This document shows positions 8,472-47,008 of a stretch of 47,638 bases of DNA, piece after piece. Position 1 is the stretch's first letter. Each line of letters opens with the position of its first letter. Location: positions 1 through 47,638 of the forward strand of contig CANQOI010000010.1 in the NCBI GenBank assembly GCA_947625435.1, given 5' to 3'. The notes below the pieces were generated by a model. It worked only from the letters and a program-made list of their open reading frames with translations. It was not told where the DNA came from and did no database searches. The translations under genes were made by a program, and so were the position numbers. This DNA is from an uncultured Clostridia bacterium. GTDB lineage: Bacteria > Bacillota > Clostridia > UBA1212 > UBA1255.

Positions 8472-8578
8472 CCGATATTTCACTACACGCCGTAAATTTT
8501 TTTATTTCAGGCATATTTCGTCATTTTTCGTCGCCGGGGGTTGGTAAAATATATTAAATGATCTTACGGGGATGTGAT

Positions 8579-9601
8579 ATGTTGAAAAATGAAAGATCTC
8601 GTTTTAATATGCTGTCCGACGACAGCTACTCTGCCTTTCGTGCGTACATACCTGTGCTGCTGGAGTGCCGCGCCAAATCGGAGCATCTTGATCTTCTCGG
8701 TGCGGCACGGGGCACCGTCGCTACCAGCAGCTATACTAAGGTTTACAAATGCAAGAAAAAGAGAAATGACGATATATGCAAAAACAACGGTTTCAGCATT
8801 AAAAGATATACAAATTTATACATAATGCTCGATGGCAGCAAGGAGTACGTGCCCAAAAAGAATACGCCTCTTGCCACTGTTGTCAGACTGAGCCGGATAA
8901 GAATGCGGAATGAGATCACACATTTTACAAAAATATACAGGAAAGCAGCCAAAAGTTCATGCGATATGTATAATGCTACCCGACCTAGGCGCGCTCCCCA
9001 CATCGATCTGGATTCGCTGCTTGAGCAGGAGTATGAAGCCTTTAAAGGCACGGCCCAATATGCCGAGGCGATAGCCCGCGTCGACTCCGAGCTTGCCCGC
9101 GGCTCCGCTGACGCGCTGACGGGTAAGGGAAATTTTGCCAAAGAGAACAGCTATATTAATGAAATATACCTCAATCCGCATGAAAGATACCGTTCAAAAA
9201 ATGAATTGATCGCTGCTTGTGCGTTAAAATCCTCCGGAATTTCGTATGAGGTCGAGCCGCCGTATCCGGGCGTTTCAAGATGCAGGGCCGATTTCGGTAT
9301 TACTGTTTCCGAGCGTAAAATTTACGTTGAAATCGCCGGCATGATGAACGAGGATAAATATCGCCGTGATCTGCTTGAAAAGAGGCGTCTTGCAAAGCTG
9401 AACGGGCTTCCTTTTGTGATTATCGATATGACGGACTACAGTGATGAATCCGGCAAAAGCCGTACCAAGCTAAATTTTGTCATGCTCAAGCGCATTTTTC
9501 TCGACATAAGCCTCGGTAATATCAAGTGTGACGGTGAGATCATCAAACCTTACCCGGCAGCGCCGCCTGCCGCAGTTCGGCGCACGCCGGCGGATATATG
9601 A
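8579..9601 (+). CDS. Putative PD-(D/E)XK-fold nuclease of unknown role
   Basis: A 340-residue protein I cannot assign to a named family. The C-terminal part looks like a restriction-endonuclease fold. It has SKNE (Glu209) in a helix, RADFGI (Asp238) on a strand and IYVEIAG (Glu251) on the next strand, then a helix with YRRDLLEKRRLAKLNG and a strand FVIIDMTD. The E-x-x-G ending followed by a later Lys is the variant in which the catalytic lysine comes from the next helix. The N-terminal 190 residues are basic and lack a clear motif. The start at 8579 is preferred because GGGG precedes it by seven bases. The gene stands alone, with an AT-rich block after it. Confidence 0.6.
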   Translation: MLKNERSRFNMLSDDSYSAFRAYIPVLLECRAKSEHLDLLGAARGTVATSSYTKVYKCKKKRNDDICKNNGFSIKRYTNLYIMLDGSKEYVPKKNTPLATVVRLSRIRMRNEITHFTKIYRKAAKSSCDMYNATRPRRAPHIDLDSLLEQEYEAFKGTAQYAEAIARVDSELARGSADALTGKGNFAKENSYINEIYLNPHERYRSKNELIAACALKSSGISYEVEPPYPGVSRCRADFGITVSERKIYVEIAGMMNEDKYRRDLLEKRRLAKLNGLPFVIIDMTDYSDESGKSRTKLNFVMLKRIFLDISLGNIKCDGEIIKPYPAAPPAAVRRTPADI

Positions 9602-9999: not shown

Positions 10000-10034
10000 A
10001 TTTTCTGCATTCAACAGCTTTTGTGCAGAAAAAT
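10000..10034. repeat. Hairpin element TTTTCTGCA...TGCAGAAAA
   Basis: ATTTTCTGCA (10000-10009) pairs with TGCAGAAAAAT (10024-10034) across a 14-base loop. The same stem forms the unit junctions of the tandem array at 38738-39540, which suggests a dispersed repeat family. Confidence 0.6.
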
Positions 10035-10125
10035 TTAAAGGTTAAACTTATCGATAAATGGATAAAGGTGTAGATTGCGCAGATTTCAGGCTTCCGGCCG
10101 CTTTCCGGTGTTCTTTTGCCCTAAG

Positions 10126-10174
10126 CCCTGACTTTTTTCTGCACAGCACATATTTTGTGCAGAAAATTTCAGGG
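10126..10174. repeat. Long imperfect hairpin with TTTTCTGCACA/TGTGCAGAAAA stem
   Basis: The arm CCCTGA plus TTTTCTGCACA is matched by TGTGCAGAAAA plus TCAGGG across an 11-base loop, giving a stem of about 17 pairs with a small internal mismatch. It resembles the element at 10000-10034 and the repeat junctions near 39 kb. Confidence 0.65.
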
Positions 10175-27673: not shown

Positions 27674-28570
27674 TTATTTTACGGCGGCGAGCCACGGCTT
27701 TTCGGCAAATATGCATGTAAGCTCAAAGATCTTCGCCGCGATATCATCATTCTCCGCACATGCGCCCGGCACTGTCATTGTCATATTGCCGCCGCACAGC
27801 GTGATATCGGCACACGCAGCATCATTGCATGAGCCCGACGAGATATACCTGCTCTCAATTATATGGACCGAAATATCGCAAGGCACGGCGCCCGCATAAC
27901 AGACCGCCTTTCGGAACGCATTCCTCAGCGTCTGCTCCGCGCAGGAAACAGACGTGCTGTCAGAGCCTGAAGTAAATATATCAACCGTGCCGCTGAACAT
28001 GTATACAGTGCCGCTCTTTTCCCTGTATGAAAGCACATCGCGCTCTATTATGAGTTCCTCGGGGCCCGTGGGCGTGATATCCGAAAGCTTAATGCCGCGT
28101 TCCTCCGCGCGCATGCGGGCCCTGGGCGTTGAAAATATGCGCGCGCCCGCAACGCTCGGCGTTACGCTTTGTGTGACGCTTTGTGTGACGCTTGGCGTGA
28201 TATCTTGCGCCGCAGCGGGAACGGCAGGCGCCGCCGCAGCCGCGGTGATATCAGGCGTCGCCGCGGGTTTATCTTCCGGGCTTTCGGACATTTTACCCGC
28301 ACCGATGTCTATATCGTCAGCGGTATCGCCGTCCTCATCGCCCACATACGCTATTACGGACGCAACAGGCACGGTAGAGCCCTCCGGGCATACGATCTTA
28401 AGAAGCCGCCCCGAGCAGGAGGCGTCTATCGTTATGACGAGCTTATCCGTCTCCATTTCAAAAAGAGGCTCTCCCTGAGTTACCGTGTCTCCTTCTTTGC
28501 ATATCCATCTTGTTATAAAGCCTTCCGTCATCTGAAGCCCCTGCTTGGGCAGTATGATCTCATGTATCAA
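27674..28570 (-). CDS. Lipoyl-domain E2-like protein without a recognisable acyltransferase site
   Basis: A 298-residue protein. Residues 1-77 form a lipoyl domain with the target lysine in METDKLV (Lys43). An Ala/Pro/Thr linker follows with repeated TPSVTQSV-like units (125-140), then a peripheral-subunit-binding domain (147-181, STPRARMRAEERGIKLSDI). Only about 115 residues remain, compared with over 220 in a normal E2 catalytic domain. They look like its two ends with the middle removed, and the HxxxDG active-site motif is absent (MTMTVPGACAENDDIAAK at the corresponding place). The TTG start at 28570 has GGAGGTG seven bases upstream. It is the last gene of the operon, after both E1 subunits; no E3 gene is present. 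Confidence 0.78.
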   Translation of the reverse strand: MIHEIILPKQGLQMTEGFITRWICKEGDTVTQGEPLFEMETDKLVITIDASCSGRLLKIVCPEGSTVPVASVIAYVGDEDGDTADDIDIGAGKMSESPEDKPAATPDITAAAAAPAVPAAAQDITPSVTQSVTQSVTPSVAGARIFSTPRARMRAEERGIKLSDITPTGPEELIIERDVLSYREKSGTVYMFSGTVDIFTSGSDSTSVSCAEQTLRNAFRKAVCYAGAVPCDISVHIIESRYISSGSCNDAACADITLCGGNMTMTVPGACAENDDIAAKIFELTCIFAEKPWLAAVK

Positions 28571-38662: not shown

Positions 38663-38691
38663 ATGATAGCATGAAATATATGCTCAGTCAA
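38663..38691 (-). promoter_or_regulatory. Promoter of the deoC operon
   Basis: Minus-strand TTGACT (38691-38686), a 17-base spacer and TATCAT (38668-38663). A second small inverted repeat, ATCAT-N7-ATGAT, overlaps the -10. Confidence 0.7.
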
Positions 38692-38737
38692 CACACATTT
38701 CTTGTATGCAAAAATTTTTTGTAAGCAAAAATTTTTT

Positions 38738-39540
38738 GCAGAAAAATTCTTCGGGACTCGGCTCTAAAAACCCGGATTCCCTGCTCGCAGCTTTGTCACC
38801 GTTTGTCACGGTTGTTTTTTTCTGCAATAAGCTTTTGTTTCTGCAGAAAAATTTTTTGGGACTCGGCTCTCAAAACCCGGATTCCCTGCTCGCAGCTTTG
38901 TCACTGTTTGTCACAAATATTTTTTCTGCAATAAGTTTTTGTCTTTGCAGAAAAATTTTTCGGGACTCGGCTCTTAATGTCCGGATTCCCTGCTCGCAGC
39001 TTTGTCACTGTTTGTAACGGTTGTTTTTTCTGCAATAAACTTTTGTTTGTGCAGAAAAATTCTTCGGGGCTCGGCTCTTAATGTCCGGATTCCCTGCTCG
39101 CAGCTTTGTCACCGTTTGTCACGGTTGTTTTTTTCTGCAATAAGCTTTTGTTTTGCAGAAAAATTTTTCGGGACTCGGCTCTCAAAACCCGGATTCCCTG
39201 CTCGCAGCTTTGTCATCGTTTGTCCCCGTTGTTTTTTCTGCAATAAATTTTTGTTTTTGCAGAAAAATTCTTCGGGGCTCGGCTCTCAAAGCACGGATTC
39301 CCTGCTCGCAGCTTTGTCACCGTTTGTCACGGTTGTTTTTTTCTGCAATAAATTTTTGTTTTTGCAGAAAAATTCTTCGGGACTCGGCTCTAAAAATCCG
39401 GATTCCCTGCTCGCAGCTTTGTCACTGTTTGTAACGGTTGTTTTTTCTGCAATAAACATTTGTCTTTGCAGAAAAATTCTCCGGGACTCGGATCCCGGGG
39501 CTCGGATTTCGGGGCTCGGATCTCAGAGCCCGGTTCTGAG
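38738..39540. repeat. Tandem array of about 7.5 units of 104-105 bp
   Basis: Units begin with GCAGAAAAATT at 38738, 38843, 38947, 39051, 39155, 39259, 39364 and 39468, a period of 104 or 105 bases. Each contains GGGACTCGGCTCT, CGGATTCCCTGCTCGCAGC, TTTGTCACCGTTTGTCACGG and a T-rich end TTTTTTCTGCA. The end of one unit and the start of the next form a hairpin (TTTTTCTGCA/TGCAGAAAAA). Copies differ at scattered positions. The last unit breaks down into three 14-bp repeats (CTCGGATCCCGGGG-like, 39486-39527). The array fills the space between the divergent deoC and cysK promoters. Protein-like frames across it are by-products of a repeat without stops. Confidence 0.92.
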
Positions 39541-39623: not shown

Positions 39624-39652
39624 TTGACAAACGGCAAGCCGCGCGCTATAAT
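39624..39652 (+). promoter_or_regulatory. Consensus sigma-A promoter of cysK
   Basis: TTGACA (39624-39629), a 17-base spacer and TATAAT (39647-39652). AACC-GATA-GGTT follows at 39660-39672, around +1, and may be a regulator site, possibly for the neighbouring Rrf2 protein. Confidence 0.85.
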
Positions 39653-44747: not shown

Positions 44748-47008
44748 AAGATTCTGTGACAAAGATCACTGCCATATGCCTTTGCGTCCTTCTCGCGATA
44801 GGAGGGATAGGCGGGGCTGCCCTTGCAATAAATAACAATAGTATTATCAGCAGCGGCAGCAATAACGGCGTCGATGAGGAGGCTCTTCAGGAAAAAAACA
44901 AAGATGAGAACACCGACGGTTCAGAAAATACGGGTATTTTCAAGGATGAGACCGTATATGTACTTGCGGGTGCGGACGGGTCAGTTCAGAAGATAATCGT
45001 CAGCGATTGGATCAGGAACTCGCCGGGCAGCGATACGGTAAACGACATATCCGAACTTACGGATGTAGAAAATGTCAAGGGTGATGAAGCCTACACCGTA
45101 AGCGGCGACAATATGCGTGTATGGGACGCCGAGGGCAATGATATATACTGTCAGGGAAACATCGAAAAGGAGCTCCCGGTAGGACTTTCCGTCTCCTATA
45201 AGCTGGACGGGAAGCCCATATCGGCAGAGGATCTGGCCGGAAAGAGCGGCCGTGTGACTATACGTTTTGACTATGACAACAGGCAGTATGAAAACGTGGA
45301 GATCGACGGCAGGCAGGAAAAGATATATGTTCCGTTCGCAATGCTCACCGGTGTTCTGCTGAGTGACGACGTTTTCAGAAATGTGGATGTCACCAACGGT
45401 AAAATGATAAATGACGGCAGCCGCACCGCCGTCATCGGTATCGCATTCCCCGGTCTGCAGGAAAATCTGGCCATTTCAAAAGACAAACAGGTATTCCCGG
45501 ACTATGTGGAGATCAGCGCGGATACCGACAGCTTCCGGCTTGACATGACTGTGACGCTGGCGACAAATGAGATATTCAGCCGGATCGATCCTGACGGATC
45601 AAATTCCGTCTCTGAGCTAAGCGCCTCTATGGATGAGCTCATCGTCTCCATGGATCAGCTCACAGGCGCCATGGATCAGCTTCTGGACGGCTCATCGCAG
45701 CTTTATGACGGACTTGCCACACTGCTCGAGAGATCGGACGAATTGGTTGACGGTATCGATAAGCTTGCCGCAGGAGCGGAGAGCCTCAAAAGCGGAGCCG
45801 GCAGTCTGGACTCAGGAGCAGCCGAGCTTCAAGCCGGAGCGACCGCGCTCTGCGAAGGACTGAACACCCTTGCGGCCAATAATGACACTTTAAACGGAGG
45901 AGCAAAGCAGGTATTTGATACGCTGCTATCCACGGCGGATACACAGCTTGCAGCGGCGGGACTTGACGTTCCTGCCTTAACTGTAGAAAACTATGCAGAG
46001 GTCCTGAACAGCGTTATAGCGTCGCTGGACGAAAACGCAGTTTATGAGAAGGCGCTGTCTGAGGTAACGGCAGCCGTGGAAGCGCAGAGAGACATGATAA
46101 GAGAGCAGGTCACTGCGGCTGTTCGGGACGAAGTGACCGCAAAGGTCACAGCCGCAGTCCGGGAGGAGGTTACGGCGCAGGTGACCGAGGTTGTCCGGAA
46201 TACCGTGGCGCAGCAGGTCATAGAGGCTTCTCTGCATATGGATAAAGCGTCTTATGATGCCGCCGTACGCGCCGGTCAGATAAATAAAGAGACGCAGGAA
46301 ATGATCGAGGCGGCGATCGATCGACAGATGCAGTCAGAGCAGATCCGCGGGCAGATTCAGGCGGAAACAGACAGGCAAATGGCGACCAAGCCTATTCAGG
46401 ATACGATTGCCGCAAATGCGGATGCGCAGATGCAAAGCGCCGCCGTAAAACAGACGATCACGGAGCAGACAGAGCTGCAGATTAAGAAAATAATATCGGA
46501 ACAAATGGCGTCAGACGATGTACAGGCACAGCTTGCCGCCGCTGCGGAGGGCGCAGGATCGGTGATCGCACTAAAAACCTCCCTTGACAGCTATAATGTA
46601 TTCTATCTCGGTCTGCAGAGCTATACGGCCGGTGTGGCCGACGCCGCAGCGGGAGCTGGTACGCTGAAAAGCGGGACTGATGCCCTTAAGGCCGGTACCT
46701 CTGAGCTTTATGAAGGAGCCTCTGAGCTTTATGACGGAATACTTACACTTAAAAACGGAACGCCGGCTCTTACGGACGGGATCACACAGCTTCGTGACGG
46801 CGCCATGCAGCTTTCCGAAGGACTTCGGGAATTCAACAATGAAGCTATTCAAAAGCTTGTGAATGCGGTAGACGGTGATATTGCCGGACTTTTAACAAGA
46901 CTTCGCGCGACAAGGGACGTGTCGCTCCGCTATAATAATTTTGCCGGCATCGGCGACGGTATGGACGGCCGGGTGAAATTCATTTACAGAACGGATTCCA
47001 TAGGTTAG
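44744..47008 (+). CDS. Membrane-anchored heptad-repeat protein, MMPL partner (YhgE-like)
   Basis: A 754-residue protein with an N-terminal membrane helix (about 9-28) or uncleaved signal and a beta-rich domain to about 270. Two blocks of Leu-x-x-Gly heptads follow (about 290-370: MDQLLDGSSQLYDGLATLLE; and 640-700: SELYEGASELYDGILTLKNG). Between them lies a long charged coiled coil (about 440-600) with repeated AAVRDEVTAKVT-like units. Such XXXLXXG proteins accompany MMPL/RND exporters in Firmicutes and may form an extracellular fibre or tube. Its ATG overlaps the MMPL stop codon. The molecular job is not established. Confidence 0.83.
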   Translation: MKDSVTKITAICLCVLLAIGGIGGAALAINNNSIISSGSNNGVDEEALQEKNKDENTDGSENTGIFKDETVYVLAGADGSVQKIIVSDWIRNSPGSDTVNDISELTDVENVKGDEAYTVSGDNMRVWDAEGNDIYCQGNIEKELPVGLSVSYKLDGKPISAEDLAGKSGRVTIRFDYDNRQYENVEIDGRQEKIYVPFAMLTGVLLSDDVFRNVDVTNGKMINDGSRTAVIGIAFPGLQENLAISKDKQVFPDYVEISADTDSFRLDMTVTLATNEIFSRIDPDGSNSVSELSASMDELIVSMDQLTGAMDQLLDGSSQLYDGLATLLERSDELVDGIDKLAAGAESLKSGAGSLDSGAAELQAGATALCEGLNTLAANNDTLNGGAKQVFDTLLSTADTQLAAAGLDVPALTVENYAEVLNSVIASLDENAVYEKALSEVTAAVEAQRDMIREQVTAAVRDEVTAKVTAAVREEVTAQVTEVVRNTVAQQVIEASLHMDKASYDAAVRAGQINKETQEMIEAAIDRQMQSEQIRGQIQAETDRQMATKPIQDTIAANADAQMQSAAVKQTITEQTELQIKKIISEQMASDDVQAQLAAAAEGAGSVIALKTSLDSYNVFYLGLQSYTAGVADAAAGAGTLKSGTDALKAGTSELYEGASELYDGILTLKNGTPALTDGITQLRDGAMQLSEGLREFNNEAIQKLVNAVDGDIAGLLTRLRATRDVSLRYNNFAGIGDGMDGRVKFIYRTDSIG

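Follow-up and report, generated by a model that had tools for sequence, protein, structure and literature searches.

A 104-bp tandem array between deoC and cysK in an uncultured Clostridia bacterium shares its junction palindrome with arrays beside putative nuclease genes

Introduction

What is a 104-bp tandem repeat doing between the divergent promoters of deoC and cysK in an uncultured Clostridia bacterium (assembly GCA_947625435.1, contig CANQOI010000010.1)? The array lies in a stretch of 47,638 nucleotides, hereafter the window, and a first-pass annotation made from the sequence alone described it as eight phased units with hairpin-forming junctions that could serve as a structural or insulating element, a variable-number locus or a set of small-RNA units.

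Structure of the deoC-cysK array

Tandem Repeats Finder (TRF) called a single 104-bp array in the window, with 7.3 copies, 89% matches and a score of 1183 (Table 1). Unit starts fall at 38738, 38843, 38947, 39051, 39155, 39259 and 39364, in steps of 104 or 105 bp, so that TRF and the unit alignment both bear out the tandem arrangement that had been proposed. The eight proposed units resolve into seven full units, with 94% column identity, and an eighth that is present but truncated, beginning at 39468; the right edge had been drawn too far, as 39481-39522 is a different 14-bp repeat. In the window there are 20 occurrences of the half-site TTTTCTGCA, where 0.47 would be expected, and the array is genuine, far above chance expectation. 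Both flanking promoters are present as described (10/12 and 12/12 matches for deoC and cysK), the scan finding two promoter-like sites against 1.8 in shuffles. In the four congeners examined, no deoC lies within ~1.5 kb of cysK.

An inner ACCGT-N5-ACGGT element had also been described. It is intact in three of the seven units (1, 4 and 6) and wobble-paired on one of the two strands in units 3 and 7, but it is broken in units 2 and 5, and therefore is not a conserved hairpin. A coding repeat was rejected because the reading frame shifts from unit to unit, 104 not being a multiple of 3. Within the unit body, a 22-bp core (TTCCCTGCTCGCAGCTTTGTCA, 38777-39424) is invariant in 7/7 units and has no copy elsewhere. 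Other short repeats in the window include a separate 17-bp repeat (ATTTTTTGTAAGCAAAA, 2.5 copies) at 38697-38746 that abuts the left edge of the array, a 12-bp tandem repeat (ACGCTTTGTGTG type) at 28152-28200, and 21-bp repeats at 45613-45681 and 46698-46738.

Table 1. Features of the window and clusters of the junction palindrome in the same genome (window positions unless a contig is named)
Feature	Position	Strand	Basis
347-aa PD-(D/E)XK-type nuclease homologue; invariant R212 S213 E216, E233, D245, E258, G261	8558..9601	+	ORF, homology, alignments, model, fold search
Palindrome cluster, 2 copies, 3' of nuclease gene	10001-10166		
Junction palindrome, first copy, 3' of the gene at 8558..9601	10001..10032	.	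pattern search
Junction palindrome, second copy, 134 bp on	10135..10166	.	pattern search
deoC promoter-like match, TTGACT-N17-TATCAT, 10/12, left flank	38663..38691	-	promoter scan
Gene-less (orphan) array, 7 full 104-105 bp units and truncated eighth	38733..39491	.	TRF, unit alignment
Palindrome cluster, 7 copies, gene-less	38818-39475		
Palindrome 1, TTTTCTGCA-N15-TGCAGAAAA	38818..38850	.	pattern search
Palindrome 2 of window array	38922..38954	.	pattern search
Palindrome 3 of window array	39026..39058	.	pattern search
Palindrome 4 of window array (N14)	39131..39162	.	pattern search
Palindrome 5 of window array	39234..39266	.	pattern search
Palindrome 6 of window array	39339..39371	.	pattern search
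Palindrome 7 of window array	39443..39475	.	pattern search
Separate 14-bp repeat, CCGGGGCTCGGATC x3, right edge of array	39481..39522	.	TRF
cysK sigma-70 promoter match, TTGACA-N17-TATAAT, 12/12, right flank	39624..39652	+	promoter scan
Palindrome cluster, 3 copies, 3' of nuclease gene	C1		
Palindrome cluster, 4 copies, 3' of nuclease gene end	C16:355-801		
Palindrome cluster, 3 copies, gene-less	C16:14020-14404		
Palindrome cluster, 4 copies, 3' of nuclease gene end	C54:421-829		

The junction palindrome forms six clusters

When the unit was sought in this genome and its relatives, its body had no second copy in the genome itself and none in 57 others, in GTDB contigs or in viral contigs, and was rejected as the conserved element, its copies being confined to the window array. 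The three short genome matches to the unit all fell on the junction palindrome. It is this 31-base palindrome, TTTTCTGCA-N14/15-TGCAGAAAA, and not the unit body, that is conserved, and the junction to which the first-pass annotation had pointed proved to be the key feature, shared by five other clusters in the genome. Searches for TTTTCTGCA, a gap of 6-34 and TGCAGAAAA, with the reversed pattern as control, recovered 20 copies with 9-bp arms in this genome, one in 37 other genomes and 0 in the control. With 8-bp arms there are 23 copies, never single, and the inner gap of every one is 14 or 15, although 8-26 was permitted. The sequence between palindromes differs from cluster to cluster, except in the related pair C16:355-801 and C54. 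The window array almost certainly belongs to this palindrome family. Four of the six clusters lie directly 3' of homologous nuclease genes (on contigs C1, C10, which is the window, C16 and C54), and the remaining two, the window array and C16:14020-14404, are gene-less.

In the C1 array (L039:1799-2215) the half-site is also found as direct repeats 25-26 bp apart, besides the inverted pairs. Just beyond it, a 214-aa protein (L039:945-1589) has a weakly ribbon-helix-helix-like N-terminus and is possibly a DNA-binding partner or a chance neighbor. Four IMG/VR viral contigs (L237-L240) each contain one exact TTTTCTGCA-N14/15-TGCAGAAAA palindrome.

The adjoining genes encode a PD-(D/E)XK-type protein

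Contigs C16 and C54 have a common first base, which falls within the final 30 codons of one gene. The array comes next, and the 5' part of this gene is missing from the assembly. A search with those 30 residues retrieved a 327-aa protein on C1 that has a palindrome array of 168-bp period directly 3', and the C1 protein in turn matches the 347-aa open reading frame at 8558-9601 of the window (E 1.1e-53). A distant homologue in the same genome (G000:C31:11000-11959, L066:2441-3559) has its own palindrome, GGTTTTTCGCT-N15-AGCGAAAAACC, 5' of the gene.

Searched singly, members of the family matched nothing convincingly in Pfam or NCBIfam (weak hits to Pfam were few, scattered and inconsistent), and PADLOC matched them to the nuclease domain only of the candidate defence proteins PDC-S68 and PDC-S69. 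Alignment of 50 sequences revealed invariant R-S-x-x-E, Y-E, D-F and E-H-x-G motifs, with acidic residues E159, D190 and E205. A confident AlphaFold2 model of the Butyrivibrio hungatei member (pLDDT 94.7) is arranged as a long helix, a beta hairpin and a second long helix, followed by a nuclease-like domain for which the best structural match is the homing endonuclease I-Bth0305I (Z 8.8, rmsd 2.6 over 90 residues); Bax1, TnsA (Z 8.0), Vsr and also Hjc are further near folds. The Foldseek E-values for this domain are modest; therefore a PD-(D/E)XK fold, as expected of a restriction-endonuclease-like domain with conserved acidic residues, is supported for the model, and the protein is a putative stand-alone, Vsr/homing-endonuclease-like nuclease with predicted activity. 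For the N-terminal helices the matches are to a wide range of unrelated coiled-coil proteins (TasH loosely, prefoldin, Rad50), and with coiled-coil matches only, a known fold for this half was dropped.

Homologues are multi-copy and variable between species. They occur in 20 of the 31 genomes of the order, with up to seven per genome, and, at a strict cut, in 24/246 genomes of the class, with up to nine; Butyrivibrio hungatei DSM 14810 and Butyrivibrio sp. INlla18 are among the named isolates that carry them. Phage and plasmid records contain almost no homologues. The plasmid matches do not belong to the stand-alone family: what aligns is the nuclease domain carried by long proteins of ATPase/helicase type. 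Three unannotated faecal phage scaffolds carry distant homologues. A viral origin was rejected, as two family members queried had no relatives in viral contigs. Scanning 20 neighboring proteins at nine loci revealed mostly unrelated housekeeping genes and no methylase or transposase domain, indicating that the module consists of one gene and its sites. Beside one palindrome-rich nuclease locus, the gene at L187:1199-2248 resembles a CDI toxin nuclease-like domain (PF21111) at borderline level. The family appears to be undescribed: Pfam and NCBIfam lack it, and a search of open-access journals turned up neither the family nor any palindrome arrays linked to a nuclease.

Most homologues across Clostridia have private palindromes

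We examined sequence within 600 bp of each gene for inverted repeats with 11-bp arms, at most one mismatch and a gap of 6-26. Such repeats were found near 46 of 56 genes in a first set, compared with 9.6 in shuffles and 11/36 distant flanks, and near 34 of 40 genes in a second, later set made up of other members of the class, compared with 8/38 distant flanks; no repeat was found by this test at 10/56 and 6/40 loci, respectively. An inverted repeat of some kind, which may be a terminator, is also present in about a fifth to a third of the distant-flank controls. When two or more repeats with the same arm were required, the counts were 17/55 in the first set against 0.0 in shuffles and 0/39 distant flanks, and 17/40 in the rest of the class against 1/38. 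Most tested homologues across Clostridia therefore carry a gene-plus-private-palindrome layout.

The arms differ from gene to gene. In one congener, the arms TTTTGCGTA, TTCGTACAA, AATTTATGCG and GTTTTTACTTT are found next to four of the genes. An arm 8-mer is common to 8 of 4078 gene pairs that have no protein match or are <35% identical, to 3/10 pairs at 60-80% identity and to 5/5 above 80%. The pairs above 80% that were checked occupy the same location in related species, and their shared arms therefore show stability and are not proof of recognition. For genes in different places with <60% identity, agreement between arms is at chance level, so attempts to track arm change along the family gave no signal, and co-variation of protein and site is shown by privacy only and not by tracked change. 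An exception to private arms is the junction palindrome itself, which is common to the C1, window and C16/C54 genes in different genomic places. At L113:2515-6651, two nuclease paralogues that are 61% identical lie ~2.5 kb apart with separate palindrome families (AGGCCGAAA and GGTATCCC types), and a related arm, GGAGGCCGCAA, is found at L112 in that genome (71% identical).

Palindrome spacing follows whole turns of the helix

The near-ten-turn spacing remarked on for the window array is real and general. Taking one spacing from each of 34 arrays with mostly unrelated palindromes, by an extraction of our own, we obtained values of 42, 51-54, 61-63, 72-76, 83-85, 101-105, 120-126, 134 and 166-171 bp. 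A scan of periods from 6 to 25 bp gave a best period of 10.4 bp with a phase near zero (Rayleigh p ~6e-8), and 0/5000 jittered sets were as strong. The signal recurs in the subject genome (p = 0.013), the rest of the first set (p = 0.0017) and the rest of the class (p = 0.0003), when each genome contributes a single array (median p 5e-5), and when the common 51-54 class is excluded (p = 4e-5). As arrays within one genome are not fully independent and the extraction was our own, this repetition in subsets outweighs the exact p value. The distance from one palindrome to the next is thus a whole number of helical turns as a general rule, of which the window array is one instance; such spacing is meaningful only in duplex DNA, where it places the palindromes of an array on one helix face.

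Arrays change in copy number and can be duplicated

Variation in unit number, one of the ideas first raised for the window array, is seen at a homologous locus: in two Butyrivibrio species with flanks that are ~94% identical, one array stretch has three units in one and one unit in the other. In another orthologous pair (L061 and L099), flanks and genes are 75-78% identical and the array region aligns solely at the palindromes (82-85%), which we count as suggesting selection on the palindromes. Four aligned orthologue pairs (65-97% protein identity) keep the same location; therefore, spread or movement is rare at that time scale, or old. In the subject genome, C16 and C54 are similar over 1-882 and 1-894, the similarity stopping ~60-80 bp past the last palindrome, beyond which one contig has a dihydroorotase-like gene and the other a MATE-type transporter-like gene (named from reading of the open reading frames). 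Given that similarity ends near the last palindrome and unrelated genes follow, the C-terminal part of the gene and its array have been duplicated to a new place.

Interpretation of the window array

We consider the window array to be, probably, an orphan member of a two-part module composed of a nuclease gene and its private inverted repeats. It is likely that the nuclease directly recognizes its palindromes, which are candidate double-stranded binding sites; binding in duplex DNA would probably be as a dimer, each subunit taking one arm, and neighboring sites on one helix face would let bound complexes touch or bridge. Less firmly, nicking or breakage at the array followed by recombination might expand and contract it, and might help the gene-plus-array unit to spread as a selfish repeat system like REP/RAYT. 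That such spread, by breakage and recombination, is the main role of the module is a proposal that we hold with some doubt. The window array could then be a target or a remnant on which nucleases would act in trans, the one encoded at 8558-9601 and those encoded elsewhere. Counted against this interpretation are the two clusters in the subject genome that have no adjoining nuclease. In its broadest form, the proposal is of a widespread, undescribed one-gene selfish (or defensive) element of Clostridia, in which a stand-alone PD-(D/E)XK nuclease reads a private palindrome phased on one helix face, specificity is fully diverged between genes, several independent pairs coexist per genome and orphan arrays lie elsewhere; for this we judge the prospects to be evenly balanced.

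Alternatively, the array could be a functionless satellite in which a 104-bp unit grew by slippage or unequal crossing-over, its palindrome being shared by chance or common descent. Confinement of the unit body to one array and its 94% column identity are what a recent expansion predicts, and expansion accounts for the uniformity of the window array, but for neither the other clusters nor the phasing. The absence of other copies had been offered as the mark of a simple satellite, yet the palindrome is found in five further clusters with unrelated bodies, four of them beside homologous genes, and helical phasing extends across arrays of unrelated sequence, making this explanation very unlikely. 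Were the palindromes instead operators for control of the nuclease gene by its own product or by some other regulator, without any part in spread, their location within a few hundred bases of the gene would be expected and phased inverted sites would suit cooperative repressor binding. However, many arrays are 3' of the gene, including all four linked arrays of the junction palindrome, one gene (L182) has as many as 11 inverted repeats around it, gene-less arrays occur and the arms vary from gene to gene; autoregulation is thus unlikely. A defence or addiction module, with the nuclease attacking foreign DNA or DNA generally and the resident array holding or titrating it, we regard as rather unlikely: the nuclease domain in common with PDC-S68 and PDC-S69 and the multi-copy, species-variable distribution are in its favor, but the match to these models is limited to that domain, the scanned neighbors are mostly housekeeping genes and not defence islands, and phage or plasmid records have almost no homologues.

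Two further alternatives treat the array as an RNA or transcriptional element. Hairpin-forming repeats near a nuclease gene, and long N-terminal helices in the model that loosely match TasH, recall small-RNA or guide-RNA arrays of the CRISPR or TIGR type. However, the window array has no Rfam match above gathering score and the folding of its units is not consistently better than that of shuffles (z from +0.4 to -2.6), for which an RNA element was rejected; together with the unconserved inner hairpin, broken in 2/7 units, this also runs counter to the small-RNA units of the first-pass annotation. Guide arrays have constant repeats and diverse spacers, whereas the window bodies are near-identical; for the Nop-domain Tas effector of TIGR-Tas the model gives only a generic long-helix match to TasH, over helices that match prefoldin and Rad50 equally, and helical phasing indicates double-stranded DNA. 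We give an RNA array hardly any credence. A role in insulating or terminating transcription would fit the position of the array between the divergent promoters of deoC and cysK; in the array, three units have a weak terminator-like hairpin on the + strand. Terminator-like sites number five against 2.2 in shuffles, which is not striking, the palindrome has T at its start and A at its end on either strand, opposite to what an intrinsic terminator shows, and most related palindromes adjoin a nuclease gene and are not between two promoters, so that such a function is highly improbable.

Comparison with known systems

The two-part module that we favor resembles several known systems in part. PDC-S68 and PDC-S69 have the nuclease domain in common with it, but the PDC-S68 models are of ~1200-residue proteins, to which the C-terminal nuclease domain alone aligns, and we know of no link between either and palindrome arrays. 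I-Bth0305I, a Vsr-like homing endonuclease, is the best structural match and a candidate selfish enzyme; in the present case, by contrast, the gene does not interrupt its sites, which persist in multiple repeats beside it, and signs of an intron or intein are absent. Type II restriction-modification was rejected, as no adjacent methyltransferase is present among the 20 proteins scanned at nine loci. Tn7-like ends, with TnsB-site arrays and the TnsA nuclease (PMC8649781), are similar in their arrays of inverted sites and TnsA-like fold; however, there is no transposase among the neighbors scanned, for which Tn7-like and DDE transposons were rejected, and the arrays lie on one or both sides of the gene without defined ends.

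There are also parallels with REP/RAYT (TnpA-REP) systems (PMC2817692, PMC3116915, PMC8266576), where one nuclease gene is flanked by its own extragenic palindromes, which are also found away from the gene and are likely spread and maintained by the enzyme. Extragenic palindromes of 20-40 bp near an enzyme gene are present here too. Identity was rejected: RAYTs are Y1/HUH enzymes, in contrast to the PD-(D/E)XK type here, and no match to the Y1 (HUH) transposase domain Y1_Tnp (PF01797) was found in the whole genome, with positive controls. Copies of the palindrome number 23, compared with over 100 per genome for REPs in the same literature, and in the subject genome they lack a GTAG/CGTC-type tag at the foot, the arms beginning TTTTCTGCA. 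Further differences are the several unrelated gene-palindrome pairs per genome, the long inner spacers and the helical phasing. If the nuclease does read its palindrome, nature would hold dozens of small (~260-350 residue) sequence-specific nucleases, and the roughly 10-base half-site written beside each gene would be a ready data set for the evolution of DNA specificity. Such a module would also account for intergenic repeat arrays of Clostridia otherwise dismissed as satellites, and would be a new kind of repeat-maintaining system alongside REP/RAYT.
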